Positions 2,035 to 37,967 of a DNA stretch of 37,967 bases are shown one piece after another. The translations under genes were made by a program, and so were the position numbers. A model generated the notes under the pieces. It had not been told where the DNA came from, did not search any database, and worked only from the letters and a program-made list of their open reading frames with translations. Source of the DNA: Clostridia bacterium (GTDB lineage: Bacteria; Bacillota; Clostridia; DUPQ01); the NCBI GenBank assembly GCA_030590175.1, contig JAUUZE010000003.1, positions 1 through 37,967 on the forward strand, read 5' to 3'. Position 1 is the stretch's first letter, and every line of letters starts with the position of its first letter.

Positions 2035-2774
2035 AAAAAATATTTATTGGAATCTTTGTAATTGCTTTTAGCGTAGTATTTTTACTAGCTATTTCAAATA
2101 GTGTTGATTTGTTTACGTATAATGATTCTTTATCAAGTGATAGTGTGTCAAATGGTTATATCAATAAAAACGTAACAAAAAATCAAAGTGAAGTTATTTT
2201 TAATGAAACTACTGATGCAGAAACAGGTTCTGCAAACATTGTAACTAGTATAATAGTAAATTATCGTTCTTTTGATACTTTAGGAGAGGTTACAGTTCTG
2301 TTTCTTTCTGCTATTGGAGTATCACTATTATTTGGTTCAACAGGAAAATTAGCTGAGAGGAAAAAAAGTGGTTTTATTCTACGAACAGCTGCTAGAATTA
2401 TTTTTCCAATGTTATTAGTAACAGGAACATATTTGTTTACTCATGGACATTTAACACCAGGTGGAGGTTTCCCAGGTGGTGCCATGATTGCAGCATCCTT
2501 TTTATTACTTTATTTAGCTGATGAAAAATTTGTTACAGCTATTGAGAAAATTAAACTAGTAGAAGGTAGTGCTGGTACACTTTATGTTCTTATTGGAATA
2601 ACAGGATTAGTAACTGGAGGATATTTCTTAGCAAACTTCATACCAACTGGAACAGTTGGTCAGTTAATTAGTTCAGGAATTATTCCTTTAATATACGTAT
2701 TAATTGGATTAAAGGTAGGCGCTGAAATTACTTCAGTTGTTAGCCGTTATTTACAAGAGGAGGTAACTTCATGA
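2031..2774 (+). CDS. mrpB: Fused MbhE plus MnhB/MrpB-like membrane subunit
   Basis: 247 residues, longer than a lone MrpB (about 140), because an MbhE-type domain precedes it. Residues 1-100 hold one hydrophobic segment, a polar extracytoplasmic loop rich in S/N/T and the motif NIVTSIIVNYRSFDTLGEVT. Residues 115-245 are the MnhB domain with FTHGHLTPGGGFPGGAM, the family hallmark. The combination corresponds to MbhE+MbhF or to the C-terminus of MrpA plus MrpB. It forms part of the ion-translocating membrane module. ATGA overlaps on both sides tie it to its neighbours. Confidence 0.9.
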   Translation: MKKIFIGIFVIAFSVVFLLAISNSVDLFTYNDSLSSDSVSNGYINKNVTKNQSEVIFNETTDAETGSANIVTSIIVNYRSFDTLGEVTVLFLSAIGVSLLFGSTGKLAERKKSGFILRTAARIIFPMLLVTGTYLFTHGHLTPGGGFPGGAMIAASFLLLYLADEKFVTAIEKIKLVEGSAGTLYVLIGITGLVTGGYFLANFIPTGTVGQLISSGIIPLIYVLIGLKVGAEITSVVSRYLQEEVTS

Positions 2775-3115
2775 TTAGAGTAGCCTCATTACTATTATTA
2801 ATGATTGGATTGTATGGATTATTATCTACTAGAAATGTTATTAAAATGATTATTTCTATTAATATCATGGAATTAGGTGTAAATATCTTTATTGTCTCCA
2901 TTGGTTTTGTTACAAATGGTGTTGCACCAATTTTAACTAGTCAGGTCAATTCATCACTTAGTAATTTTGTAGATCCTTTACCACAAGCATTAGTATTAAC
3001 ATCTATTGTTATTGGTTTAGGGATAACAGCATTAGGGTTAGCATTTGCTAGAAAGCTATACAAAAAGTATGGCACCTATGATTTAGCAAAGATAGGAGGT
3101 ATGAAAGATGAATAA
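2771..3115 (+). CDS. mrpC: MrpC/NuoK-like membrane subunit (MbxG position)
   Basis: 114 residues with three transmembrane helices, the NuoK/MnhC fold. Family features include SINIMELGVNIFIVSIG (helix 2, with the conserved Glu) and DPLPQALVLTSIVIGLGITA (helix 3). In complex I the Glu residues of NuoK are part of the proton path, and the equivalent role in Mrp systems is accepted. Its start overlaps the stop of the preceding gene by four bases; its end overlaps the next gene by eight. Confidence 0.92.
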   Translation: MIRVASLLLLMIGLYGLLSTRNVIKMIISINIMELGVNIFIVSIGFVTNGVAPILTSQVNSSLSNFVDPLPQALVLTSIVIGLGITALGLAFARKLYKKYGTYDLAKIGGMKDE

Positions 3116-4544
3116 TCCTGTATTATTAATTGTCATACCGTTATTATTAGCATTTTTATCTGTAATTATTAAAAAAGCAGGTAAATGGCTATTATTAGTT
3201 GGTTTACTTTTCAACACAGCATTGGCATTCTTTATTACAACGGGTGAAACTATTATTGGTGGATTTGCTCCTCCATATGGAATAAATCTTGTTGTCGATC
3301 AATTTACTTTAGTAGGAGTTATCTTAATAAACACATTAATGCTCATTACAATTGTTGTGTCATTTGATTTAGTGGGTAAATATTCCATTGTTTTATTAAC
3401 AGCATTAGCAGGTATTAATGGTATGCTTTTGACAGGTGACTTATTTAATCTGTTTGTCTTTATGGAAATTACAGTTATTGCAGCATATATTTTAAGTGCT
3501 CAAGCTAAAAAGTATCACCACACAATAACCTATTTGGTAATTGGTTCAGTTGGTTCAGTTTTATACTTGCTAGGTATTATATTATTGTATAACTTAACAG
3601 GTAGTTTAAATATGGCTGATGTAGCAGCAAAATTACCTCTATTAACTACTAAAGAACTTTTAGTTCCAGTCTTATTGATTTTCATTGGGATTGGTGTTGA
3701 AGTTAAATTAATGCCTGTAAGTGGATGGGTTAAAGGAGTTTATTCAAATGCAAATAGACTTATTGCTCCATTATTCGCATCAGTAATTGCAGGAACTGCT
3801 CTATTTGTTTTTGGTAAATTATTCGTAAGCGTCTTACCAGTTAGTGATACTTTAACATTATTAATGTTAATTATGTCAGTTATGACTTTTGTCTTTGGTG
3901 AGTTTGCAGCATTTAACCAGAAAAGAGTAAAAAACATTCTACTTTATTCAAGTATTGGACAAGCTGGTTTAGTTACTGCTTTGTTTATATCAGGTTTAGT
4001 ATATGCAGCTGTGATTTTACTAATTAGTAATGTTATTTCTAAATTAATTATGTTTACCATTGCAGGTGCTTTTACTGAAAAATATGAAACTGATGACTAT
4101 GAGTCATTAAACGGTGTATTTGTTCATAATAAATTTACTGGGATAGCATTTACAATTGCAGCTTTATCTATGGCAGGTATTCCACTATTAATTGGTTTCT
4201 ATGCTAAGCTAAATATCCTTATTGGATTTTTCCAAGCGCAGAACTATGTTCTTCCAGCAATCATTTTACTTATGGCTATAGTTGAAGGGGCATATATTAT
4301 TAAGTTATTACTAGCTCTTTGGGCACCTGGAAAAGAAGGACAAGTTTCAGAAAAATCATTTGCAGTAGAGAAAAAACAATTATTATCAGTTAAAAATACA
4401 ATAATCTGTTTAATAGTTGCCTTAGTTATTATTGCAGGTGGAGTATTAATAGATATAACAGAAAAAGTTGTAACAGATGGACAACCACTATTAGGTGATC
4501 AATCACCATCATTTACAATATCTCAAAGTAAAGGAGGGGAATAA
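3108..4544 (+). CDS. mrpD: MrpD-type ion antiporter subunit (MbxH position)
   Basis: 478 residues with about 14 transmembrane helices, the proton-conducting antiporter family shared by MrpD, MbhH and NuoN/M/L. Key residues are visible: Glu120 in the helix-5 motif NLFVFMEITVIAAY and Lys200 in helix 7 (GVEVKLMP). The region after Lys200, usually PLHxWLPxAHxxAPSxVSA, reads PVSGWVKGVYSNANRLIA and is atypical, as in MbhH/MrpD relatives. It is predicted to carry Na+ or H+ across the membrane. A one-base overlap joins it to the second, more canonical antiporter subunit; possession of two such subunits argues for Mbx/Mbs architecture rather than Mbh. Confidence 0.9.
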   Translation: MNNPVLLIVIPLLLAFLSVIIKKAGKWLLLVGLLFNTALAFFITTGETIIGGFAPPYGINLVVDQFTLVGVILINTLMLITIVVSFDLVGKYSIVLLTALAGINGMLLTGDLFNLFVFMEITVIAAYILSAQAKKYHHTITYLVIGSVGSVLYLLGIILLYNLTGSLNMADVAAKLPLLTTKELLVPVLLIFIGIGVEVKLMPVSGWVKGVYSNANRLIAPLFASVIAGTALFVFGKLFVSVLPVSDTLTLLMLIMSVMTFVFGEFAAFNQKRVKNILLYSSIGQAGLVTALFISGLVYAAVILLISNVISKLIMFTIAGAFTEKYETDDYESLNGVFVHNKFTGIAFTIAALSMAGIPLLIGFYAKLNILIGFFQAQNYVLPAIILLMAIVEGAYIIKLLLALWAPGKEGQVSEKSFAVEKKQLLSVKNTIICLIVALVIIAGGVLIDITEKVVTDGQPLLGDQSPSFTISQSKGGE

Positions 4545-6367
4545 TGACTTTAATTACTGTATTAATCACCCTGCTTACCTTAGCAGCAGTTACATATTTA
4601 TTATCACTTGTTAATAGCAAATTAGGAGCTTACTTTACTATTGTAACTTCACTAGCTACGATTGTTATGCTATTTTTAATAAAAGATAGTATAGGTCAAT
4701 CTTATAGCTTGTCGTTTTTCACTTTTAAATTAACAACTGTTGGATGGTATTTTTCCATGGTTATGGTGACAGTATATTTCACAACAGCTTTTCTAAATCC
4801 ATTTTGGATAAAAAAAATGATTTATCCTGCTGCATATAACTTATTCTTTTTAGTTTCATTAATTGGAACAATTGGAATGTTTTTTGCCAGAGATTTCATT
4901 ACTTTATTCATTTGTTGGGAAACAGTGGTATGGACATCTACTTTCATTATACAGATGGGAAAATCTAGAAAATCATCTTATGTATACTATGTAGTTAGTG
5001 CAATTGGTTCAATGGTAACACTTTTTGCAATGATGTTAGTTTATCAAGTTTCTGGAACATTAGAAATTTCAACAGCATTTAGTGCGCTTTCTGGACAACC
5101 AGTATTAGCTTTAATTGTATTCTTTACATTTATATTAGCTGGACTTAGTAAAATTGGTATATTCCCATTTCATGTATGGTTACCAATGGCACATGGAAGT
5201 GCTCCACATACCTTTTCACCGGTATTATCAGGTGGACTAGTAAAAATGGGAGCATTTATCGCTTATCTAAGTGTTACAGCATTTGCAGCTTATGAAGTTT
5301 TTGCTAATACATTCACTATTATGGGAATACCAGCACCTTTATACATAATTATGGTGCTTGGTGCAATTTCAATTGTTGTGGGAACAGTGATGGCCATTAG
5401 GCAAGATGATGCTAAAAAGTTATTAGCATATTCCTCTGTAGCAAATGGAGGATATATATTAATTGGAATTTTATTATATGATCAAATAGCTTTTGCAGGT
5501 GGAATGCTTCATTTAATTTCCCATGCATTAGCTTCAGCTACAGCTTTTATTACAATTGCCATAGTGGCATATCGTACTGGAACAACAAAAATGTCAGAAT
5601 TAGGTGGCATGATTCATAGAATGCCAGTAACTTATACTGTTTATTTAATTGCAATTATATCCATGGCAGGAATACCTCCAATGGGTGGATTTGTTTCTAA
5701 ATGGTTAATATTACAAGGACTTGCAGATCGTGGGTTATTATTCCTAGCGGCAGCTGCTTTCTTTGGTTCAATTGGTTCATTTATGTATGTGTTTAGACCA
5801 CTTAGTGCTGTATTCTTAGGTCAATTAGCTCCAAAATATGAAAAAATAAAAGAAGCTAATATAATGATGCAAATTCCAATGTACTTATTAACTATAGCAA
5901 CATTATTAGTTGGAGTATTCCCAAATGTTGTATTACGTGTCATAGCTGATATTCAACTTGAAGCTGGAATACAAGAAATAGTATTAGTTGGAAACACAAT
6001 TGTAGTATCAAATGGTGTATTAGACGCTTTAAGAGTATTTATTGTATTCGGATATGGTTTCTTAATTGCTTTAGTAATATTCATCTTAAGGAGAAAGAGC
6101 AGAAGGGTAACTTTAATGGATACCTATACTTCAGCTGAGTTTATTCATACACCAGAGTTATTACATTATTCAAGTAATTTTTATGCTCCTTTTGAGCGAT
6201 TAACAAAAAAACCTTATCCAGTACTTAACTTATATGAAAAAGTATCAATTAAGATAAAAGAGATTGGGCATATGGCAGAGAGCCTATTTTCAAGTTCTAA
6301 ACCGGCAATTACCATATTCTGGATTATCATTGTGTTTGCAATATTTTTCTTAGGAGGTGTTCTATAA
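4544..6367 (+). CDS. Second antiporter subunit, NuoL/MrpA-like (MbxH' position)
   Basis: 607 residues with about 14 core helices plus a C-terminal extension. Canonical motifs are present: Glu126 (FICWETVVW), Lys203 in SKIGIFPFHVWLPMAHGSAP, a further Lys in GGLVKMGAF, and SVANGGYILIG later. The core ends near residue 500. Then comes a basic loop (RRKSRR), a hydrophilic stretch starting TSAEFIHTPELLHY, an amphipathic segment around the Pro-rich KKPYPVLNLYEK, and a last helix. This tail resembles the lateral-arm extension of such subunits. In archaeal Mbs/Mbx a second antiporter subunit in this place distinguishes the complex from Mbh hydrogenase. It should translocate a second ion per turnover. 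One-base overlaps join both neighbours. Confidence 0.9.
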   Translation: MTLITVLITLLTLAAVTYLLSLVNSKLGAYFTIVTSLATIVMLFLIKDSIGQSYSLSFFTFKLTTVGWYFSMVMVTVYFTTAFLNPFWIKKMIYPAAYNLFFLVSLIGTIGMFFARDFITLFICWETVVWTSTFIIQMGKSRKSSYVYYVVSAIGSMVTLFAMMLVYQVSGTLEISTAFSALSGQPVLALIVFFTFILAGLSKIGIFPFHVWLPMAHGSAPHTFSPVLSGGLVKMGAFIAYLSVTAFAAYEVFANTFTIMGIPAPLYIIMVLGAISIVVGTVMAIRQDDAKKLLAYSSVANGGYILIGILLYDQIAFAGGMLHLISHALASATAFITIAIVAYRTGTTKMSELGGMIHRMPVTYTVYLIAIISMAGIPPMGGFVSKWLILQGLADRGLLFLAAAAFFGSIGSFMYVFRPLSAVFLGQLAPKYEKIKEANIMMQIPMYLLTIATLLVGVFPNVVLRVIADIQLEAGIQEIVLVGNTIVVSNGVLDALRVFIVFGYGFLIALVIFILRRKSRRVTLMDTYTSAEFIHTPELLHYSSNFYAPFERLTKKPYPVLNLYEKVSIKIKEIGHMAESLFSSSKPAITIFWIIIVFAIFFLGGVL

Positions 6368-7287
6368 TGACTGTGATGAATTTTGTTTATGGCTTTATTG
6401 TCTTATTGGCAGCATTTATTTTTCAGACAGCTTTAACAGGTGTTAATAGAAAAGTAACTGCACGTATACAAAAGAGATATGGACCTAGATGGTATCAACA
6501 GTTTTTAGATATCTTCAAAGCGCTACGTAAAGGTTCAATTACTCATGGATGGGTATTTGACTTTGGTGTAATAATGGCACTTGGAGGAATTATGGCAACG
6601 GTTATTTTCATTCCTGTTGCTGGATTTGAAGCATTCCCAAATATGGATAATGTATTTGTAATTTCTTATCTACTAGCTGTTGGAATGCTAGGAATGGCTA
6701 TGAGTGCAGCAGGTTCTGGTAACCCTTGGGCAAGTATAGGTGTATCTAGAGCACTAACCAATATGGTTGCTTATGATGTTCCATTAATGATTGTAATCTT
6801 TACATTAATATTTGCCTTTGATACAGCCTCTGTATCAGAAATTGCCGCTATGCAACAAGGAATGGGTGTTCTAGGTTGGAATGCCGTTAGAATGCCTTTA
6901 GGAGGCATTGTAGCCTTTATAGCATTGTTTGGTATGTTGGGTAAAAAACCCTTTGACTCTTTCATTGCTCCTGCTGAAATTGCTTCAGGACCAATGGTAG
7001 AATATGGTGGAAAACATTTAGGATTTATGTTCATTTTACATGAACTAATGACATTTATTGAAGTATCATTAATTTTAAGTTTATTCTTTGGTGGTGGAAG
7101 TTCAATTTTAGTATATGCCATCAAATATGCAATATTATATACTCTGGTCAATATAATATCTCAGGTTATGCCTAGATTTAAAATTGATCAAGCTGTTAAA
7201 TTTTTCTACAGAGTTCCGTTAGTTTTCGCAATTATTCAGGGCTTAGTAGTCATCTTCTTAGGATGGGGGGTATCTGTATGGTTTTAG
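6367..7287 (+). CDS. nuoH: NuoH-like membrane subunit (MbxM position)
   Basis: 306 residues with eight predicted helices; this is the NuoH/MbhM/EchB family that joins the peripheral redox arm to the membrane arm. The N-terminal motif GVNRKVTARIQKRYGPRWYQ is diagnostic, as is the loop KPFDSFIAPAEIASGPMVEY, which retains the acidic residues that surround the quinone site in complex I. Here a quinone substrate is not implied; Mbh and Mbx keep the same loop. Encoded before the NuoB-like gene, as in archaeal Mbx clusters. The stop overlaps the NuoB-like start by ten bases, with the Shine-Dalgarno sequence inside this gene. Confidence 0.93.
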   Translation: MTVMNFVYGFIVLLAAFIFQTALTGVNRKVTARIQKRYGPRWYQQFLDIFKALRKGSITHGWVFDFGVIMALGGIMATVIFIPVAGFEAFPNMDNVFVISYLLAVGMLGMAMSAAGSGNPWASIGVSRALTNMVAYDVPLMIVIFTLIFAFDTASVSEIAAMQQGMGVLGWNAVRMPLGGIVAFIALFGMLGKKPFDSFIAPAEIASGPMVEYGGKHLGFMFILHELMTFIEVSLILSLFFGGGSSILVYAIKYAILYTLVNIISQVMPRFKIDQAVKFFYRVPLVFAIIQGLVVIFLGWGVSVWF

Positions 7288-7829
7288 AAAATCAAGATAA
7301 CAGAAACTTATGGGAAAAAATCGGTGATTTTTTCAGTGCCAACTCAATTTGGATGAAATGGTATTGTACTGGTTGTGGAGCAATTGAATTGCCTCCAACA
7401 ATGACATCACGATTTGATATGGAACGTTTAGGAATGGGGCCAATGGCTACACCTAGACAAGCAGATGTACTGCTTATTACAGGTTACTTAAGTAGCAAAA
7501 CACTAAGAAGGGTTATCTACTCTTATGAGCAGATGCAAGATCCTAAATATATTGTAGCTTTTGGTTCATGTACAATCAATGGAGGAATCTACTATGATTC
7601 CTATGCAACTATTAATCAGTTAGATAAATATATACCTGTTGATTTGTATATTGCAGGATGTATGCCACGTCCAGAAGGAATTATGAATGCTTTTGCTGAT
7701 TTAATTACCATGATAAAAAAAGGGCAAGCCAATGGATGGCGCCATTACCAAGAAAATTATGAATGGTATAAGCAAAATCAACTAGACTCATTAAAGGAGG
7801 TAATTATACATGATGAATTCCATGAATAA
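7278..7829 (+). CDS. nuoB: NuoB/MbhJ-like [4Fe-4S] subunit
   Basis: 183 residues. The start at 7278 follows GGGGGG (7265-7270) at seven bases; the in-frame ATG at 7263 would lie inside that site. Four cysteines expected to bind the cluster proximal to the active site are present: Cys30 and Cys33 (WYCTGCGAIE, spaced as in the hydrogenase-type small subunit rather than the adjacent pair of complex I), Cys98 (FGSCTINGG) and Cys128 (AGCMPRPEG). RFDMERLGMGPMATPRQAD is strongly NuoB-like. It passes electrons from the ferredoxin-like subunit to the site at the NuoD-like interface. The gene overlaps both neighbours and its 3' end contains the ribosome binding site of nuoC. Confidence 0.93.
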   Translation: MVLENQDNRNLWEKIGDFFSANSIWMKWYCTGCGAIELPPTMTSRFDMERLGMGPMATPRQADVLLITGYLSSKTLRRVIYSYEQMQDPKYIVAFGSCTINGGIYYDSYATINQLDKYIPVDLYIAGCMPRPEGIMNAFADLITMIKKGQANGWRHYQENYEWYKQNQLDSLKEVIIHDEFHE

Positions 7830-8328
7830 TATTATCAAACAAATTGATGATGTCTTAACAATTACAAATAGTGAAATTATTACCAATAGACAGTTTGCTA
7901 TTGATATAAATAGTGGCGATGTTCATCAGTCATTAGCATATTTAAAATCAATTGGATTTACTCAATTAAGTATTCTTACTTGTATTGATTTGATTGCTAA
8001 TAACGAGTTCCAATTAATCTACATTCTTAATAACTGGGAACTAGGATTGTTTGTTATAGTTAGAACCATAATACCTAGAGACAATCCAGCATTTGTTACA
8101 ATAATAAATATTTTTCCAGGTGCAAAGTATTATGAGCGAGAAGTACATGAGTTCTTTGGAGTGACCTTTGAAGGAAATGATTCCTATTCTAAACCATTAC
8201 TACTAGAAATTTGGGATGATATACCTCCACTTAGAAAAGATTTTGATCCCCAAGTATATTCAGATAGTAAGTTTCCAAAGCGTGATTTAGATAAAATATA
8301 TCGCTCTAAAATAGGAGGTGTTGACTAA
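7810..8328 (+). CDS. nuoC: NuoC/MbhK-like peripheral subunit
   Basis: 172 residues, NuoC 30-kDa family. The N-terminal domain is divergent (residues 1-95). The C-terminal signature YEREVHEFFGVTFEGN followed by PPLRKDFDP (about residues 110-150) is diagnostic. This soluble structural subunit holds the NuoB/NuoD-like pair against the membrane arm. AAAGGAGG (7793-7800) lies nine bases before the chosen ATG at 7810; a second ATG at 7813 is equally usable. It overlaps the preceding gene by 20 bases, and its stop directly abuts the next start. Confidence 0.92.
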   Translation: MMNSMNNIIKQIDDVLTITNSEIITNRQFAIDINSGDVHQSLAYLKSIGFTQLSILTCIDLIANNEFQLIYILNNWELGLFVIVRTIIPRDNPAFVTIINIFPGAKYYEREVHEFFGVTFEGNDSYSKPLLLEIWDDIPPLRKDFDPQVYSDSKFPKRDLDKIYRSKIGGVD

Positions 8329-9438
8329 ATGAAAGAAGTAAAACTGTTTTTAGGTCCTCAGCATCCTGGAATGCATGGAAACTATAGTGTTCATATGTAT
8401 GTTGATGGAGATATAATAAAAAAAGCACGTCCTACACCTGGGTTTTTACACCGTGGTTTTGAAAAACTTATGGAGAGAAGACTTTGGATGGGTAATTTAG
8501 CTTTAATTCCTAGAATTTGTGTTGTGGAACCAGATATTAATGAAATGGTTTATGCACAAGGAATTGAAACCCTAGCTAATGTAGAAGTTCCTGAAAAAGC
8601 ACATTGGATTAGAATGTTAATTTTAGAAATGGCTCGTTTAGCTATTCATATTATGGGGTTAGGAGGCATTGGTGGACCTACTGGAATGTACACAATCACT
8701 TATTGGGCTATTGCACAGCGTGATTTGATTTTAGATTTATTTGAAGAAATAACTGGAGCTAGAGTTTATCATATGTATATTGTACCAGGTGGTGTTAGAA
8801 AGCAATTACCAGTTGGGATTTTAGATAAAGTTAGTAAGTTATTAGACGAATTAGATGTTAAAATTCCAGAGTATAAAGAATTAGCACTAAAACATCCTAT
8901 TATTCATAAACGTATTAAAGATAATATTATGTTACCAGCTGATGTTGTATGGGAACTAGGTGTAACTGGTATTGGAATGAGATCTGCAATAGGAAAAGAA
9001 TATGACCTTAGAAAAGTTCAACCATATGCTAGATATGATCAAGTTGAATTTGATGTACCAATTGCAAATTATTCAGATGGGTTAACTAGAATGAATACTA
9101 AGTATAAGGAAATTTTCCAAAGTATTAGAATTCTTAGGCAGGTTATTGAAAAAATGCCAAAAGAAGGCGAAGTTAGAACTAGAGTTTCTACTGGAAGTGC
9201 ACTGCGTTGGACAGTTCCAGCTGGAATGGTCTATTCTGCTATTGAATCAAGCAGAGGAGAATATGGATATTTCATTGTATCAGATGGAAAAGAAATGCCT
9301 TATCGTATAGCTGTTAGAGGCGCGTCTTTCCCACAGGGGCTATTAGGTATTGAAAAATATTTAGTAGGTCATAGAATTGATGATGCATCCCTTTGGATGG
9401 ATACAATGGGTGTTTGCTCACCAGAGATAGATAGGTAG
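8329..9438 (+). CDS. nuoD: NuoD/MbxL-like catalytic subunit with incomplete NiFe cysteine set
   Basis: 369 residues, the 49-kDa/NiFe large-subunit family. Family motifs are GPQHPGMHG at the N-terminus, PGFLHRGFEKLMERR and IVPGGVRKQLP. In NiFe hydrogenases the metal is held by two CxxC pairs. Here the first pair position reads RICVVEP (Cys64, with Glu67 where the second Cys would be) and the C-terminal pair reads MGVCSPEIDR (Met360, Cys363). Two of four ligands are therefore gone, so a normal H2-evolving NiFe centre is unlikely. Archaeal Mbx/Mbs also have altered motifs in this subunit and reduce polysulfide or related acceptors. The true substrate here is not known. AGGAGGTG precedes the ATG at good spacing. 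Confidence 0.9.
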   Translation: MKEVKLFLGPQHPGMHGNYSVHMYVDGDIIKKARPTPGFLHRGFEKLMERRLWMGNLALIPRICVVEPDINEMVYAQGIETLANVEVPEKAHWIRMLILEMARLAIHIMGLGGIGGPTGMYTITYWAIAQRDLILDLFEEITGARVYHMYIVPGGVRKQLPVGILDKVSKLLDELDVKIPEYKELALKHPIIHKRIKDNIMLPADVVWELGVTGIGMRSAIGKEYDLRKVQPYARYDQVEFDVPIANYSDGLTRMNTKYKEIFQSIRILRQVIEKMPKEGEVRTRVSTGSALRWTVPAGMVYSAIESSRGEYGYFIVSDGKEMPYRIAVRGASFPQGLLGIEKYLVGHRIDDASLWMDTMGVCSPEIDR

Positions 9439-20413: not shown

Positions 20414-22255
20414 ATGGAGACTATTAACTGGAAAAATGTTGCAGAAAAGATAAGCAAAGAATCATGGGCAAGTACCATGTATCAAACAATGAAAGATAAT
20501 GTTGATGATTATATCAAGACATATCATGATGATGCTAGTGATGTGGCAGGGTGGGGACATAATTATCACTGTACTGAATGCTCGGGACGATTACAATTTG
20601 ATATTAATAAAAGAAATAGCCATGTGTGTAGTGTTTGTGGCAAAGTTAACAGTGGTAACCAAGGACAAGATGATTCTTGGACAGCTACATACCGTGGGAA
20701 AAGTTGTACAACTGCATATCAAGCAGCAATTATATATAATATTAATGGGGGACAACAGTATATAAACTATATAAAAAAAGTAGTTAATTTCTTTGCTGAT
20801 CATTATGATGAATTTAAAGCATGGTCTCCAGCGAAACGATTTGAAGGAAAATTAACAGGTATTAATTTAACAGATGCTGCTCATATGATTCAAATTTTAT
20901 TTGCATTAGATATGACACGTACTCAATATTCACAAAGAGAATTAGATAAATGGTATGAGAAATTATTTGTAAGACAAGCTGCAATGTATGAGCAATATTC
21001 AAATAAAATATATAATATTCCAGTATGGATGAAATGTGCTGAGGGAATGATTGGGATTTTCTTTAATAAGCAAGTTACGATTGATAATGCATTTCACTCA
21101 CGCTTTGGAATAATGGATCAATTAAGAAGAGGAGTAACAAAAGATGGCATGTGGTTTGAAGCTTCACCACATTATCATTTTTATTGTGTACAACCAATAA
21201 CATATTTATTATATTTTGTAAAAAAATATGATAGAGAAATTAGTACACAACAAGAATTAGTTGATTATGTTGAACAGTTATATTTATTTCCATTAAAAAA
21301 TTCTTTTAGAAATGGTTTTACACCTAATCCATGTGATGGATGGCCAGGTACTTATATTGAAAAATATCGTGCTCAATATGAATATGCTGCTATGTTATTT
21401 GATAATCCATATTTTAAACAAACTGTTGGAACATTTTATAAAGGAAATGATTTACCAACTATAGAACGATTATTATTTAATCAAGGATATCAATCAGATG
21501 GGCTACCTAAGTTTGGATCACAGAATTTTGAAGATTCCTTTAGTGTAATGCTTAAAAATGATATAACAGAAGTTTATCTAAAAACAGGTATAAAAACTAT
21601 TTGTCATGCTCATCCTGATGTTATGACTTTTGAGCTTTGTTTTTATGATGACTTAGTGTCTACGGATCTTTCTAGTAATGGATATGGTAGTAAAATATTT
21701 AATGAATGGCAGCGAAAAAGTATTAGCCATAATACTGTTGTGATTAATCAAATAGATCAACGATATGAACCAGTTGGAGAAGGTATATGGCCTGAAGGTA
21801 TTGTTGAATATTTTGATGATAAAACGATTAAAGCAAAATCAAAAAATGTATATGAATGTTGTGATTATACTAGAGAGTTTAATATAAATGATAATGTAGT
21901 TAGCGAAAAGTTTTTAGTTAAAGGTGTTGAAGATTATACTATTGATTGGTGCTTTTATTGTAAAGGTGAAGTGAAAATAAGTAGCCCATATAAAAAAATT
22001 GATAGTTTAGGTGATGAAGAGGGATATCAACACTTATTTGACATAAAAGAGATTGATGGTAGTAGAAATCAGCGGATTTCCTTTGTTTTACCAGATAAAG
22101 TAATTCATTTAGATATGAAAGGTCATAACGATAGCAAAATCTATATAGTTAATAGTTATACAAAAACTTTCCAAGAAACAAGGTATGGGGTTATAGTTAG
22201 AAGACATGGAGAAAGCACATTGTATGAATGTACTTATACTTGTGAGCTTACATAA
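20414..22255 (+). CDS. Heparinase II/III-like polysaccharide or oligosaccharide lyase
   Basis: 613 residues. A zinc-ribbon-like knuckle lies near the N-terminus (Cys53-Cys56 and Cys72-Cys75), as in related Paenibacillus-type heparinase II/III proteins. An alpha-toroid region (about 110-350) has GMWFEASPHYHFY and PNPCDGWPGTY. A beta-sheet C-terminal domain starts near 390 with HAHPDVMTFELCFYDD, and the segment WQRKSISHNTVVIN is the heparinase II/III C-terminal signature. Such enzymes cleave uronic-acid-containing glycans by beta-elimination; the precise substrate (heparin, alginate, ulvan-type or exopolysaccharide) cannot be assigned. There is no signal peptide, so it probably acts on imported oligosaccharides. 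GAGAGGG precedes the ATG. The GH78-like gene follows 18 bases later. Confidence 0.85.
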   Translation: METINWKNVAEKISKESWASTMYQTMKDNVDDYIKTYHDDASDVAGWGHNYHCTECSGRLQFDINKRNSHVCSVCGKVNSGNQGQDDSWTATYRGKSCTTAYQAAIIYNINGGQQYINYIKKVVNFFADHYDEFKAWSPAKRFEGKLTGINLTDAAHMIQILFALDMTRTQYSQRELDKWYEKLFVRQAAMYEQYSNKIYNIPVWMKCAEGMIGIFFNKQVTIDNAFHSRFGIMDQLRRGVTKDGMWFEASPHYHFYCVQPITYLLYFVKKYDREISTQQELVDYVEQLYLFPLKNSFRNGFTPNPCDGWPGTYIEKYRAQYEYAAMLFDNPYFKQTVGTFYKGNDLPTIERLLFNQGYQSDGLPKFGSQNFEDSFSVMLKNDITEVYLKTGIKTICHAHPDVMTFELCFYDDLVSTDLSSNGYGSKIFNEWQRKSISHNTVVINQIDQRYEPVGEGIWPEGIVEYFDDKTIKAKSKNVYECCDYTREFNINDNVVSEKFLVKGVEDYTIDWCFYCKGEVKISSPYKKIDSLGDEEGYQHLFDIKEIDGSRNQRISFVLPDKVIHLDMKGHNDSKIYIVNSYTKTFQETRYGVIVRRHGESTLYECTYTCELT

Positions 22256-22273
22256 TAGCTTAAGGGGAGATTA

Positions 22274-25069
22274 ATGAAAAATTGGATTTGGGTGAAAGAT
22301 GGCTCACCAAGTGAAAATGTAGTTGCTTGTTTTAGAAAGCAATTTATTTGTAAAACCAATATAAAAACCATGGTTTCTATTAGCGCAGATACTCGATATG
22401 TTTTGTATATAAATGGCCATGAAGTAGGACAAGGACCTATTCGTTCCACAAAAGAGAGATGGTTTTATGATGAATATGATATCACTCCGTATTTAGATGA
22501 AGATTATAATGTTATTGCTATTAGTGTGTGGGACTATGGCATGTCTACCTACCAGAGTATTGCTAATCAAGGTGGGGTTATTTTTTCAGTTAAACAAAAT
22601 GAAACATATATTTGCCAATCTGATGACAGTGTAAAAAGTGCTATTAATACTGGTATTAAATCCAAAACTGTAAAACGTAATGTTAATTTAGGATTTATGG
22701 AATATTTTAATGCAAATAAATTTGATTCTATGTGGATGAAAAAAAGCTTTGATGATAGTGGCTGGAATAATAGTATAAATATAAAAGATGATTGGGGAAA
22801 TTTACACCAAAGACAAGTAAAGTTTATGGATCATCAATTAATAAGACCACAAAATATTTATTCAATTAAAGAAGTAATTCCAACTATAAAAAATATTTCA
22901 GTTAATTTGCGACCAACTATGTTTCCAAATAGAAAAGATGCTAATGCATCTATATTTTCTGGATTTTTAGGGTTTTATATTACAAGTGCAAGTGATCAAT
23001 CAGGATTTATTAACTTTCCTAACAATAAATGGAATGGTGTTTTTGGTGATTTAAAAATTGATCAAACATATTATAATGTGGATAATATTAATCGTAAAAC
23101 TGCCATAAAAATTAAAAAGGGGAAACAACTATTATTAATGAATATTGCTGCAAAGCATGATGACTTATATTCGCATATGGAATTTTCATTTGATGAAGAA
23201 CTTGTTTATTCTGATTTTTTTACCATTGGACCTACTACGTATATTGAAAATAAAACAGATGGTTATAATAAAATATACGGTGGATTAGAAAATTATGAGC
23301 GTTTATCAGATTTAAGTGATACACATAAAAACATATATGAATTAGCACCTAATTTAGAATCTGTACGTAAATTAATTAAACCTATTAGTAACGAATATGT
23401 ATTTTTTGATGAATATATTTTATCGCTGGTTGAAAATAAGAAAGTAGTTAATGAACGTATAGTTTTATCTAAAGATAATGGACTATTACATGGAAATACC
23501 TTGCCAACTATTTTAGAACCACCTACGAATGGAACTGATTTAGAAGTTGTAGTTGATTTTTATGATATGTTTGTTGGAAATATTGGTTTTTCCATAAAAA
23601 GTGATGCTAATATAATATTAGATATATATGGGTTTGAAAATCTATTTGAAGATGAAATTGACTTTACTTTTGGATTAAATAATGGGATTAGATATATTAC
23701 AAAAGAAGGTTATCAGCAATATACAACTTTTACTCGTCTAGGATTTAGGTATCTGATGTTAACTTTTAGAAATATGACAAAACCAATAGAAATATATTCG
23801 CTAACTGTTAATCAAAGAAGTTATCCTGTAGGACGGAATGGGCATTTTAGATGTGATGACTACCTGTTAAATAAAATATATGATATATCTAGACGAACAA
23901 ATCAACTTTGTTCAGAAGATACATTTACTGATAGCCCAACCTATGAGCAGGCTTTTTGGTCAGGAGATGCACAAGTCTCTTCAATGGTTAGTGCATATTA
24001 TTTTGGAGAAAAAAACTTAGTTAAAAACTGTATTATGCAAGTACCATTATCAAGGGGAAATACTAAATTATTAGCAGCATTAATGCCTACTGATTGGGAA
24101 ACTGCAATTCCACTTTGGACAATGAATTGGATAATTACCATAGATGAATACATATTTAATACAGGAGATGACAGTGTAATAGAAGAACTATATGAACCTG
24201 TAAAAGAAACACTTAAGTATTATACAAATTTTATTGAAGAAGATGGTGCTTTTAATATTTCTGCTTGGAATATGATTGACTGGGCACCTATGGATATACA
24301 TAATCAAGGAGTTATGACAGCACAGCAAGGACTCTTGGCTCATTGTTTTGAGATATTTGAAAAGATGGCTATTAGATTGCAAAAAGATGAAGCAAAGTTA
24401 TTCAATGAAGAAAAACTTAGATTATTAACATATCTTGATACAAAATTATGGTTAGAAAATGAGCAAGAGTTTGTTGATGGTTATACGCATAAATATGGAT
24501 TGTCTAAAACTGTTGGTATGCAGACTCATGTAATGCTTTATCAATATGATTTAATAAAAGATAGCGTAAAAAAAGAAATAGTTTTAAAGAAAATACTAAA
24601 CAAACCAAAACATTGGCTAGATGTAGGCTCACCTTTTATGCTTTTTTATCTATTCGATATATATAATAAACATGGAAAACATCAAAGGATATTAGACGAG
24701 ATAAGAAACAGATGGGGAATGATGTTACGTTATGATTCTTCAACCTGTTGGGAAGTATTCCCTGGTTTTTATGAGAATTCTAGAACAAGGAGTTATTGTC
24801 ATTCATGGTCATCTTCGCCTGGATATGTTTTTATTAAATATTTATTAGGATTTTTACCTATAGAAGAAGGATTTAATAAAATATCGCTAAAAATCCCAGA
24901 TGTTGATATAAAATGGTGTGAAGGAAGTATACCTACACCGCATGGTAGAATAGATGTTAGGTGGAGCACAGAAAATAATCAACAAGTTTTCCATGCTAAA
25001 GTTCCAAAAACTATTGAAATCGTTTTGCAAATAAATGATAATTGGAATATAGAAATTGAAAGGATTTAA
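22274..25069 (+). CDS. GH78-like alpha-L-rhamnosidase
   Basis: 931 residues. N-terminal beta-sandwich domains ([18 protein letters not shown], then [15 protein letters not shown]) are the carbohydrate-binding region of bacterial rhamnosidases. A catalytic six-hairpin (alpha/alpha) domain spans about 530-850, with the acidic signature [16 protein letters not shown] (Asp553, Glu558), the counterpart of the DCPxREQxxWxGDAQ motif of GH78. A C-terminal beta domain starts after [16 protein letters not shown]. The CP-R residues of the classic motif are SPTY here, so it belongs to a divergent branch and substrate preference may differ. No signal peptide. AGGGGAG precedes the ATG. The ZIP gene starts two bases after the stop. 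Confidence 0.85.
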
Positions 25070-34924: not shown

Positions 34925-35307
34925 TGAAAGAAATATATGAAAGGTTTTCTAAAGATCGTTTTTCCAAGCTTTGTGGGATTATTATTGATGACATCCAATT
35001 AGGATATGCAAAAACATCAGTAATGGTAAAAGAACAGCATTTAAACGGTGTAGATATTACACAAGGTGGATTAGTATATACTCTTGCAGATGTGGCTTTT
35101 GCTTGTGCATCAAACTCCTATGGACCTATAGCTGTAGGATTAACTACTAATTTTTCATTTTTAAAATCTACTACAGCAGGACATGAACTAACAGCCATTG
35201 CTAAAGTTGATTCACTAACAAGAAAAACTTGTACAGTTACAGTAGAAGTTTTTCAACAAGATGAATTAATTGCTAAAATGTTAGGGACAGCTTATGTCAA
35301 AGGATGA
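34924..35307 (+). CDS. PaaI-family hot-dog thioesterase
   Basis: 127 residues, a single hot-dog fold. The signature LNGVDITQGGLVYTLADVAF (about 38-57), followed by TTNFSFLKSTTAGHELTA, fits PaaI/YdiI-type acyl-CoA thioesterases. The substrate is not set by sequence; phenylacetyl-CoA and other aryl-CoAs are typical for the group. It begins within the pheT stop (TAATG) and overlaps the next gene by 14 bases, so it is translated from the Phe-regulated transcript. No signal peptide. Confidence 0.9.
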   Translation: MKEIYERFSKDRFSKLCGIIIDDIQLGYAKTSVMVKEQHLNGVDITQGGLVYTLADVAFACASNSYGPIAVGLTTNFSFLKSTTAGHELTAIAKVDSLTRKTCTVTVEVFQQDELIAKMLGTAYVKG

Positions 35308-36214
35308 AAAATATAAGCTTACACTAGTTCATGAGCATCCTGTTATTGACGATCCTAAAGGCCATATTAGAATGGTGGCAGGCTATCGTGATTTAAATGG
35401 GATGTATCATGTATTTTGTGATTTTATTGATTATTCTTTTCACACAATTCATTCTTGGCAAGCTTCAATTAAATATTATAAAGGTAAGAGTTTAACTAAT
35501 TTGTATGATCAGGGAATATTAATTTCATCAAATGATTATGGCGTTGGTTCACCTGGAGTAGTAGTTTATCAAAAAAAAGTCTATCTTTTTTATTCTAATC
35601 ATAAAATATATGGAGATACTTCTGTATTTAATGGATATTCTAAACCAGGGGAAACAGGGTATGTTAGTTCAGATATTCATGTAAATATTTATAAAACAGA
35701 TAAACAGTTAGCAATTGATACAACCTCTAATGAACATTTTGAAGTTCTTAATAGAGATAATGGCTGGAAATCAATGAGAGTTGATGATCCAAGTCCTATT
35801 ATTATTGATAACCAATTGATTGTTTATTATAAAGGATTTGATGATAATCGTGATAAAAGCCATATACAAGTTGGGGTAGGTACTTTTTTGAATAATCACT
35901 TAATAGAACAGGGGATTATTTTATCATCGACATATGGTTTTGAAATGCCTCGTCCATTTATAAAAGATGGGAAAAAACAGTTGTTTGTAAGAAATTTCAG
36001 TCACGATATTAGTTCGTGGAGTCATTATATTTTTAGAAATAATAAGTATATTCTTCATGACAATCAATTTTTTTATGGCCATCCTAATTCAAAGGCAATG
36101 GATGTTAGTTTCATTTGTGATACCTTTGGAAATCTAACAGGTGATGTGTTGGCTTGTGGAACTAATAACAACCAATTAAAACAATGGGCTTATAGTTTGT
36201 CTATCAAATCATAA
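35294..36214 (+). CDS. Five-bladed beta-propeller glycosidase-like protein (GH43/GH32 type)
   Basis: 306 residues with repeated propeller-blade motifs: YHVFCDFIDY, SPGVVVYQKKVYLFYSN, DDPSPIIIDNQLIVYYKG and MPRPFIKDGKKQLFVRNF. The Asp-Pro and Tyr/Phe-rich strands are those of GH43/GH32/GH62-like catalytic propellers, but I cannot place it in a numbered family. Candidate acidic residues lie in the DDPSP and FEMPRP blades. Being without a signal peptide, it probably acts in the cytoplasm on small arabino-, xylo- or fructo-sugars; a non-enzymatic role is possible. The start overlaps the thioesterase by 14 bases. Confidence 0.75.
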   Translation: MSKDEKYKLTLVHEHPVIDDPKGHIRMVAGYRDLNGMYHVFCDFIDYSFHTIHSWQASIKYYKGKSLTNLYDQGILISSNDYGVGSPGVVVYQKKVYLFYSNHKIYGDTSVFNGYSKPGETGYVSSDIHVNIYKTDKQLAIDTTSNEHFEVLNRDNGWKSMRVDDPSPIIIDNQLIVYYKGFDDNRDKSHIQVGVGTFLNNHLIEQGIILSSTYGFEMPRPFIKDGKKQLFVRNFSHDISSWSHYIFRNNKYILHDNQFFYGHPNSKAMDVSFICDTFGNLTGDVLACGTNNNQLKQWAYSLSIKS

Positions 36215-36225: not shown

Positions 36226-36247
36226 TTTAGTAATAGAGGTGGGTATA

Positions 36248-37576
36248 TTGAGTAGTATCTATAGTACATTTTATAATGATGGGAAATTGCTAATCTTTGC
36301 ATTACTCATGTTTTCTATGTTTTTAACTGTATATGTTACTGTAATTATTTTAACAAATCTTCGTCAAAATAAATTAATATATCCATATATGATGTATCAA
36401 TCGATTGCATTTATTGTCCAATTTTTTACATTGATGAAATTATTAGCAATGCCTGAGCAATTTATCTTCTTAACAAGAATTAGTGCAATAATGTCAGTTT
36501 ACCTTGAAAGTTTATTCTTAATATTAATATTTTCACTTGTTCTGGAAAAAACACCATCTTTACCATTTATGCTTTCAATGATTGCAATACCTTTTGTTCT
36601 TATGAATATTATTATAATTGAACCCACATCACTTTTGACAAGTACAGTACCTTATCAAATTAATTATGGCTTAATTTATTATGCTAAAGGGATTTTTCAA
36701 TATGTGGTAGCTTTTATTTCATTAATAATTGTATATGTGTTCATCTATAGGATAAAAGGAAAACTAGAAATTAAAGATATATGGCTATCTTTGTTGATTT
36801 TATTACCTATATGTTTTGATATTTATTCAAGCTTTTTTAAAAATGGTGCGTATGAAGAAGTTTTGTATTTTCTGCTTTTTACAAAACAGTTAATTCTATT
36901 ATATACAATTTCACAAAAATGGGCTTTTAAAATGATTGGAAATATTCAAAAAAATACTTTAAATATTATTAGTGGTGGTGTAATAATTGTTAATAATTAT
37001 GGTACAATAGTTTATTCAAATGGAAATGGTTTGTTAGGAAAAATCCAATCTGTAGAAAGTGAAAACCAGTTAAAAGTTGAATTAAATAAACAGCTTCTTG
37101 AACCATCACTTTCTCTTGAGGGATTAACTTTTTCATTAGTTGATGAAAATATTCAATTTGATTTTCAAACAAAAGATTATTTGTATTATTTGTGTTCAGT
37201 TAACAAACTGCTTGGTGAAAGAAATACAGTAGTAGGAGTTATTGTTTCATTCACTGACATTACAGAGTATAAATTGTTGATTGAAGAGCTTACAGAAAAG
37301 AATTTAAATCTTGATAAAGCAAATACAGAACTAGAAAATCAAGAAATAATAATTAGAAATATAAGTAAAATGAAAAAACAGGAGAAAATTTCTCAAGATA
37401 TAAGAGATTTATTAGCGAATACTATGACACAGATACTAACTAGTTTGGAAGCTAGCGAGATACTAATATCTTTAGATAAAGAAAAGGCAAAAGCATCACT
37501 AGAAGATGTTATGAATTTAGCTACAGAATATTTAGCTAAAGTACGAAAAATGGTATCTAGTCTTAAAGAATGGTAG
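36248..37576 (+). CDS. Histidine-kinase-like membrane sensor lacking phospho-His and ATPase domain
   Basis: 442 residues from the TTG at 36248, preferred because AGAGGTGG (36235-36242) lies just upstream and the in-frame GTG at 36239 is inside that site. About seven hydrophobic helices fill residues 10-225. A PAS-like domain (about 235-340) has ISGGVIIVNNYGTIVYSN and VVGVIVSFTDITEYK. A coiled coil follows, then an HisKA_3-type dimerisation helix pair. There the usual RELHDxLGHxLT reads QDIRDLLANTMT: the phospho-accepting His is Arg386. The protein stops right after this domain (VRKMVSSLKEW) and has no HATPase domain. The stop is clean and the response regulator starts ten bases later, so this is not a simple frameshift in the window. 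Confidence 0.85.
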   Translation: MSSIYSTFYNDGKLLIFALLMFSMFLTVYVTVIILTNLRQNKLIYPYMMYQSIAFIVQFFTLMKLLAMPEQFIFLTRISAIMSVYLESLFLILIFSLVLEKTPSLPFMLSMIAIPFVLMNIIIIEPTSLLTSTVPYQINYGLIYYAKGIFQYVVAFISLIIVYVFIYRIKGKLEIKDIWLSLLILLPICFDIYSSFFKNGAYEEVLYFLLFTKQLILLYTISQKWAFKMIGNIQKNTLNIISGGVIIVNNYGTIVYSNGNGLLGKIQSVESENQLKVELNKQLLEPSLSLEGLTFSLVDENIQFDFQTKDYLYYLCSVNKLLGERNTVVGVIVSFTDITEYKLLIEELTEKNLNLDKANTELENQEIIIRNISKMKKQEKISQDIRDLLANTMTQILTSLEASEILISLDKEKAKASLEDVMNLATEYLAKVRKMVSSLKEW

Positions 37577-37586
37577 GAGGAAAGAA

Positions 37587-37967
37587 ATGATAAAAATAGT
37601 TATTGTAGATGACCATGTTTTATTACTTGAAAGTTTAAAAACTTTTATTGAGCAAAATGAAGAGTACAGAATAGTTGGTGAGGCTAAAAATGGTATTGAA
37701 GCTATTGAAGTATGTAAAAAAGTGTATCCTGATGTTGTATTGATGGATGTGAAAATGCCAGAATTAGATGGTATTAAAGCCGCCAAAGAATTGAAACGAG
37801 AATTTCCACGTATTAAAATTATTATTCTAACCTCATATGAAGATAATGAAAGTATTTTTGAAGCTTTTGCTATGGGAGTCGATGGATACTTACTTAAAAA
37901 TACTAACCCAAAAGATTTGATGGAAGCCATCAGATTGACTGTAAATGGATTATGTGTAATTCAGCGG
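37587..37967 (+). CDS. NarL/LuxR-type response regulator, receiver domain (3' end outside window)
   Basis: 127 residues are visible; the window ends in frame within the gene. The receiver domain is intact: acidic pair Asp8-Asp9 (VIVDDHVLL), phospho-acceptor Asp54 (VVLMDVKMPE), Thr in IIILTSYED, and Lys in GYLLKNTNPK. The LuxR-type helix-turn-helix expected after residue about 145 lies outside the window. AGGAGG (37575-37580), overlapping the sensor stop, precedes the ATG. Since the neighbouring sensor cannot phosphorylate it by the usual route, its phosphate source or mode of control is open. Confidence 0.93.
   Translation, partial: MIKIVIVDDHVLLLESLKTFIEQNEEYRIVGEAKNGIEAIEVCKKVYPDVVLMDVKMPELDGIKAAKELKREFPRIKIIILTSYEDNESIFEAFAMGVDGYLLKNTNPKDLMEAIRLTVNGLCVIQR

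Follow-up and report, generated by a model that had tools for sequence, protein, structure and literature searches.

The usual picture of a histidine kinase is a homodimer of two complete chains. The locus described here, at the end of contig JAUUZE010000003.1 of a Clostridia bacterium (assembly GCA_030590175.1), appears to be organised otherwise. The whole contig, i.e. a stretch of 37,967 nucleotides, was analysed and is hereafter called the window (C121 in our numbering). Its last complete gene codes for what we call a half-sensor, a protein ending in the helix pair of a dimerization and histidine phosphotransfer (DHp) domain. Judged from gene and domain content, the half-sensor (TM-PAS-DHp; TM, transmembrane) is the non-catalytic member of a conserved module of three genes, hereafter the trio, the two others coding for a NarL-type response regulator and for a 7TM-PAS-HisKA_3-HATPase kinase (7TM, seven TM helices).

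The system nearest in design is FasB/FasC/FasA of group A Streptococcus, known to us, like the other systems compared here, from excerpts of the cited papers. As in the trio, two sensor-kinase-like proteins and one regulator are encoded in one operon, and one of the sensors is a proposed pseudokinase whose TM and DHp part suffices (PMC12675982). FasB and FasC formed heterodimers, not homodimers, in two-hybrid assays (PMC12675982). The trio likewise comprises two sensor-kinase homologues and one regulator that are genetically linked. It differs in three respects: FasC has retained both a His that is required (H246) and a domain resembling HATPase, FasA is reported as ComE-like whereas the regulator here is NarL-type, and no reciprocal residue loss was found in the excerpted text (PMC12675982), whereas it is present in the trio. 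DesK/DesR of Bacillus subtilis also combines a HisKA_3 kinase with a NarL-type regulator and displays an asymmetric phosphotransfer state, but there is a single, homodimeric kinase in which every protomer carries the His, Arg235 and the catalytic and ATP-binding (CA) domain (PMC5231405).

Other resemblances were more partial. RcsD, RcsB and RcsC are similar in that a protein with an inactive kinase domain and a complete kinase serve one transcriptional regulator, but RcsC is a hybrid kinase, RcsD has a histidine phosphotransfer (HPt) domain, and the system is a phosphorelay of homodimers (PMC13317618). No HPt or receiver match occurred in the half-sensors and kinases that were scanned, which sets the trio apart from an Rcs-type phosphorelay. 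In Corynebacterium glutamicum, a ChrS pseudokinase variant, i.e. a kinase without a working CA domain, likewise affects the phosphorylation of the paralogous kinase HrrS, and the native paralogues heterodimerise; yet this variant is a laboratory-evolved mutant rather than a conserved gene, and its truncated form showed no heterodimer (PMC9491836). DivL (Caulobacter) and RocA (group A Streptococcus) are also non-catalytic kinase homologues regulating another kinase, but differ in domain makeup and gene setting, and neither is described in the excerpts as sharing an active site with its partner. A literature search among open-licence papers, which is weak evidence of absence, turned up neither the trio nor any case of paired kinases with reciprocal loss.

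The half-sensor is 442 amino acids (aa) long when read from position 36248. Its start is either a GTG (open reading frame (ORF) 36239-37576) or a TTG (36248-37576), the latter codon being ATG in three congeners. In the 36248 numbering, Arg386 occupies the HisKA_3 phospho-His position, and both R386 and R433 were invariant in the four congeneric proteins. An earlier note, made from the letters of the window alone, had described a sensor with Arg386 for His that ends before the HATPase domain, and this was borne out by Pfam: HisKA_3 scored 26.4 bits for a cut-off of 24 (residues 383-443 in GTG numbering, model positions 4-64 of 68), and HATPase was absent from the protein, which stops where the DHp ends. 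Lacking both of these defining features, the half-sensor is not a histidine kinase. PAS_9 (13.4 bits) and HisKA_7TM (7.8 bits) stayed under the Pfam cut-off. Seven membrane helices are plausible, neither confirmed nor denied by a crude hydropathy rule that gave 4-5 segments in half-sensors of the window genus and 3-6 in the others. Short half-sensors (319-389 aa), encountered in convergent systems (see below) and in G521, have a smaller membrane part.

Between the half-sensor stop at 37576 and the regulator ATG at 37587 lie 10 bases, in which no leftover HATPase sequence was found. An intact receiver with Asp54 at this place had also been noted before, rightly (Response_reg, 105 bits; Asp54 read from the sequence), but C121 ends within the regulator gene, leaving its helix-turn-helix (HTH) part and all downstream genes beyond the contig end. 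GerE HTH scored 44 bits in the orthologue of congener G002; receiver phospho-Asp and GerE HTH (the latter scored in this orthologue) are those of a NarL/LuxR-type regulator. The end of the window overlaps the start of contig C115 (Table 1), where 7 bases separate the end of the regulator, with its HTH part, from a 574-aa kinase. The latter has both a DHp with His and an HATPase, as expected of a HisKA_3 histidine kinase, with all matches above the Pfam cut-off (HisKA_7TM 56.2, HisKA_3 41.5 and HATPase_c 33.9 bits, as well as PAS). The order half-sensor, regulator, kinase was found in one row on a single contig in congeners G002 and G001; in G003, the contig break likewise falls between regulator and kinase. 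What had been taken for a two-component pair is a three-gene system cut by the contig end. The separate HATPase protein whose search the earlier note had advised does exist in the genome, not as an orphan but as the adjacent gene on C115. This assembly (190 contigs, 77% complete) contained 14 HATPase matches and only two HisKA_3 matches, namely the half-sensor and the C115 kinase; an orphan HATPase elsewhere was dropped as partner since one of the 14 is this adjacent kinase. Relatives also have a complete kinase at the locus, which had been expected to speak against a truncated design, but it is a separate third gene and the sensor itself stays truncated.

Half-sensors from the window genus displayed 61-90% identity to that of the window, the same end point and an Arg in all. 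Ratios of nonsynonymous to synonymous substitution (dN/dS, Nei-Gojobori, three close congeners) were 0.08-0.12 for the half-sensor, 0.07-0.09 for its DHp part alone, 0.10-0.14 for the kinase and 0.01-0.03 for the regulator; no value was obtained for pairs that include the fourth species, which were saturated. The same end point was observed across at least 14 families at a median identity of 17% (18 half-sensors compared). Because of these ratios and of this survey, the half-sensor gene is not decaying. A recently truncated kinase, produced by decay or by an assembly error, could draw on the contig break at which the window stops, where the overlap is 98% and not 100% (hence real assembly trouble), and on a broken copy in one relative (G131); it is already contradicted by the dN/dS values and by an end point common to 14 families, to which the lack of any HATPase remnant may be added, and we regard it as hardly credible. 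A frameshift as cause of the truncation is ruled out, the same truncation being found in four congeners and, at low identity, in at least 13 other families.

The class was surveyed in 391 genomes and the phylum in 398; since only the best three to four candidates per genome were scored in these large surveys, genome counts of the trio are lower bounds. It was present in at least 22 genomes of at least 14 families of the phylum, i.e. at least 13 genomes in the class survey (families f1, f7, f21, f22, f23 and f77) and at least nine further genomes in the phylum survey (f101, f109, f132, f152, f162, f173, f197 and f209). No match was found in the seven genomes of the family's two sister genera. 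In 19 genomes the trio lay on a single contig, either in line (8) or with a convergent kinase (11), and the half-sensor was always directly upstream of the regulator. Gene order has varied while the trio remained together. The order of rcsDB and rcsC is convergent as well. Of 53 kinases placed in a tree, the 20 from trios grouped together with the edge case G241 (support 89/89), and this group was divided into one mainly in-line and one convergent subgroup; related 7TM kinases outside it (family f53; g114 of f7) adjoin a regulator without half-sensor. Distances among half-sensors and among kinases were correlated (r 0.93, 0/2000 permutations, 18 genomes), which shared species history predicts as well. 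Among half-sensors of other families, HisKA_3 Pfam matches were obtained in 0/3 and 0/4 of those scanned, and the DHp was seen only by local profiles or alignment.

Conservation in the DHp domain was counted in 32 other HisKA_3 kinases, 20 trio kinases and 20 half-sensors, the first set being high-scoring non-trio matches from the surveys and not a random sample. Kinase rows left out were G241 (contig end), G068 (DHp not alignable), L109 and L136 (duplicates), L113 (a half-sensor) and G357 (split by runs of N). The broken G131 half-sensor was also left out; its C-terminal piece has Asn for His and keeps the Arg. Positions are given relative to the phospho-His (H) or to an Arg of DHp helix 2 (R), and fractions in the order of the three sets. 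Trio kinases kept the phospho-His (32/32, 20/20, 0/20), the Asp after it (H+1; 32/32, 20/20, 4/20), Ala, Gly or Ser at H-4 (32/32, 20/20, 6/20) and His or Gln at the phosphatase position H+5 (30/32, 20/20, 6/20). Half-sensors, conversely, kept the helix-2 Arg (31/32, 0/20, 20/20), as well as, more often than trio kinases, Arg or Lys at H-6 (32/32, 2/20, 16/20), hydrophobic residues at R+3 (32/32, 9/20, 20/20) and R+6 (27/32, 0/20, 18/20), and Glu at H-9 (32/32, 4/20, 12/20). Including the G241 kinase, which has Lys at the Arg position, would give 0/21 for the trio kinases.

The truncation for which homologues were to be sought recurs across at least 14 families, with differing residues in place of the His (Arg, Asn, Lys, Gln, Glu, Ser and Val). 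In trio kinases, the helix-2 Arg is replaced by Ser, Asn, Ala, Lys, His, Gln, Pro or Met. Since the replacing residues vary, it is the absence itself, of His in one protein and of Arg in the other, that is the conserved feature. Scored against the other kinases, helix 1 exceeded helix 2 in 20/20 trio kinases, and helix 2 exceeded helix 1 in 16/20 half-sensors, the four exceptions being those of the window genus. When the His/Asp/Gly/His and Arg columns were removed, the tendency was the same but weak (helix 1 versus helix 2, 0.39 versus -0.11 bits per column in trio kinases and -0.21 versus 0.17 in half-sensors). The prediction concerning the Arg was set down before the phylum survey, and the nine new trios from that survey conform to it. 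Half-sensor and kinase have, on these alignments, lost complementary parts of the DHp domain. An unlikely account of these proteins is that of an accessory co-sensor, the kinase being a normal homodimer that the half-sensor modulates only through membrane or PAS contacts (as proposed for RocA and CovS in the excerpts at hand), with its DHp helices as a passive linker. Both proteins do have membrane and PAS-like parts, but the half-sensor DHp is under selection, the proteins end just after it in all families, and a normal homodimer would not explain why kinase helix 2 lost residues kept by 27-32 of the 32 other kinases.

Half-sensor and kinase both align to DesK of B. subtilis, which provides the closest solved structures for the kinase and for the half-sensor DHp. 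The helix-2 Arg lies 47 residues after the His, which corresponds to R235 when counted from DesK H188, and the half-sensor Arg aligned directly to R235. In DesK:DesR structures, Arg235 forms a salt bridge with DesR Asp103; DesR docks chiefly on helix 1 of one DesK protomer and touches helix 2' of the second to a minor extent, and the phosphotransfer complex is asymmetric, with two kinase chains per regulator and one CA on helix 1 of the other protomer (PMC5231405). The counterpart of Asp103 is an Asp kept in 16/19 trio regulators (Ser in G268). A half-sensor homodimer that binds the regulator directly, by sequestration or as a phosphatase aid and without the kinase, would agree with the retained regulator-contacting Arg and with a gene always placed directly upstream of that of the regulator. 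Yet in 16/20 half-sensors the degenerate part is helix 1, on which DesR mainly docks in DesK, and the kinase's loss of helix-2 residues is left unexplained, which makes such a homodimer quite improbable. The phosphatase-position Gln or His and the Asp adjoining the His, present in only 6/20 and 4/20 half-sensors, also disfavour the stand-alone phosphatase-like scaffold proposed in the earlier note. Of its three proposals, dimerisation with a separate kinase, here the next gene past the contig end, is the one favoured, and its suggestion of a design unlike ordinary two-component systems is supported.

We infer from sequence that half-sensor and kinase pair as an asymmetric heterodimer, together with its composite site, the direction of regulation and the need for the half-sensor. 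The kinase would contribute the ATPase domain, the phospho-His and helix 1 as main docking surface of the regulator; the half-sensor would contribute helix 2' with the regulator-contacting Arg and a second sensory input through its membrane and PAS regions. Kinase helix 1 and half-sensor helix 2' would together form the single working regulator site of each dimer, its mirror image being dead for want of both His and Arg. Signals reaching the half-sensor would adjust the output of the complex, be it kinase, phosphotransfer or phosphatase activity. A kinase homodimer, without Arg at either site, would signal poorly or not at all. Such a heterodimer matches the asymmetric, one-regulator state of DesK. 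There, CA and His are required of one protomer only, while the other has to provide no more than helix 2' and, as a support for the CA, helix 1; Glu H-9 and Arg/Lys H-6, kept in half-sensors, could reflect this support role. A conserved module with complementary DHp loss, whose half-sensor and kinase form an asymmetric heterodimer that has a single composite site for the regulator, is to us the probable reading, with ample room for doubt.

Several points weigh against it. The main difficulty, by analogy, is that the docked CA of DesK sits on helix 1 of the other protomer: if autophosphorylation takes place in trans, a heterodimer whose only CA shares a chain with its only His would be unable to self-phosphorylate, and cis action or a higher-order or exchanging complex would be required. 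A hetero-oligomer of a kinase dimer and a half-sensor dimer, instead of a 1:1 heterodimer, would remove this difficulty and has a parallel in RcsC and RcsD, which are homodimers by cryo-electron microscopy and for which a heterotetramer is suggested (PMC13317618); taken alone, it leaves the loss of helix-2 residues in the kinase and their retention in the half-sensor without explanation, and we consider it very unlikely. In the four half-sensors of the window genus, helix 1 scored no worse than helix 2 against the other kinases, and the Asp103 counterpart is Asn in this genus, where the exact salt bridge is not conserved. Helix 2 of trio kinases is poorly conserved and of uncertain register in places, G755 and G675 having an Arg one residue off. 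Moreover, the 20 trios are one lineage and not 20 independent events. The position of Arg235 on the second protomer is not literally stated in the excerpts of PMC5231405; it follows from its location in helix 2 and from helix 2' being the only helix-2 contact named. AlphaFold2 prediction of the half-sensor from a four-row alignment was unusable (predicted local distance difference test (pLDDT) 41, predicted template modelling score (pTM) 0.23). The proposed heterodimer itself rests on sequence evidence.

Table 1. Features of the trio locus and arrangement of trios by genome (coordinates refer to the window unless a locus is given)
Feature	Position	Strand	Remarks
Half-sensor (pseudo-histidine kinase)	36248..37576	+	Membrane and PAS-like regions, then a DHp helix pair; catalytic domain absent; Arg386 at the His position
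DHp (HisKA_3) helix pair, last domain of the half-sensor	37385..37567	+	Arg386 (His position) and Arg433 (DesK Arg235 counterpart)
NarL-type response regulator, first 127 aa	37587..37967	+	Cut by contig end; LuxR-type HTH part on contig C115
Overlap with start of contig C115	37638..37967	+	330 bp, 323/330 matching
Complete kinase	L034:596-2320		Outside window, on contig C115
In-line half-sensor > regulator > kinase			G001, G002, G327, G054, G081, G357, G131, G521
Kinase convergent to half-sensor > regulator			G140, G183, G268, G562, G474, G760, G619, G755, G675, G662, G575
Trios split by contig ends			Own genome, G003, G241

The neighbourhood of the locus was also inspected. An ORF of 306 aa without Pfam or NCBIfam match (35294-36214) lies between a thioesterase gene and the half-sensor; it occupies the same place in G001 and is absent there in G002 and G003. 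Elsewhere, the window carries Complex I/Mrp-type antiporter and 49-kDa subunit genes, as well as a heparinase-like and rhamnosidase pair (3108-9438 and 20414-25069). The overlap between C121 and C115 is only 98% identical, which suggests that the break was caused by a mixture of strains at the regulator gene. On the 3' side of the kinase, the window genus displayed an oxidoreductase-like gene in two of four species and a LacI-like regulator gene (names by eye).

Further observations came from the surveys. In six convergent trios (L180, L181, L182, L183, L184 and L186), the kinase gene is flanked by a large divergent ORF of 712-829 aa. Three of these were scanned and displayed GLUG with Cu_amine_oxidN1 (copper-amine-oxidase-N), SLH with GLUG, and TPR repeats, respectively; that such ORFs are the target of the convergent systems is possible, as a lead only. 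Two genomes of family f53 have solitary 7TM-PAS proteins (415 and 407 aa; L157:3534-4781, minus strand, and L158:3687-4910, plus strand) that end soon after the PAS and have no DHp, i.e. another type of truncated sensor. In G184, 7TM-PAS and DHp-HATPase parts occur in adjacent ORFs separated by stops (L079:1412-2437 and 2524-3192), which is either a split kinase or a broken gene. The G131 half-sensor gene (L153:4525-5816, minus strand) is broken into two frames in that assembly, where regulator and kinase look intact.

Beyond the locus itself, the trios may represent widespread two-part histidine kinases, a broader proposal that we hold tentatively and would sooner doubt than assert. One enzyme would be split across a heterodimer, chain A bringing ATPase, His and docking helix 1, and chain B, apart from a sensor of its own, nothing but docking helix 2'. 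By itself the kinase could not serve the regulator, so that the pair would act as an obligate two-input device, with one regulator site and frozen in the asymmetric state through which ordinary DesK-type homodimers pass. A lineage found in at least 14 bacterial families, with His and ATPase on one chain and the regulator-contacting Arg on the other, is a natural experiment on which chain gives what. Composite docking of a regulator across the dimer becomes testable residue by residue, and sensors with two inputs might be built on the trio as a naturally occurring candidate heterodimer scaffold.
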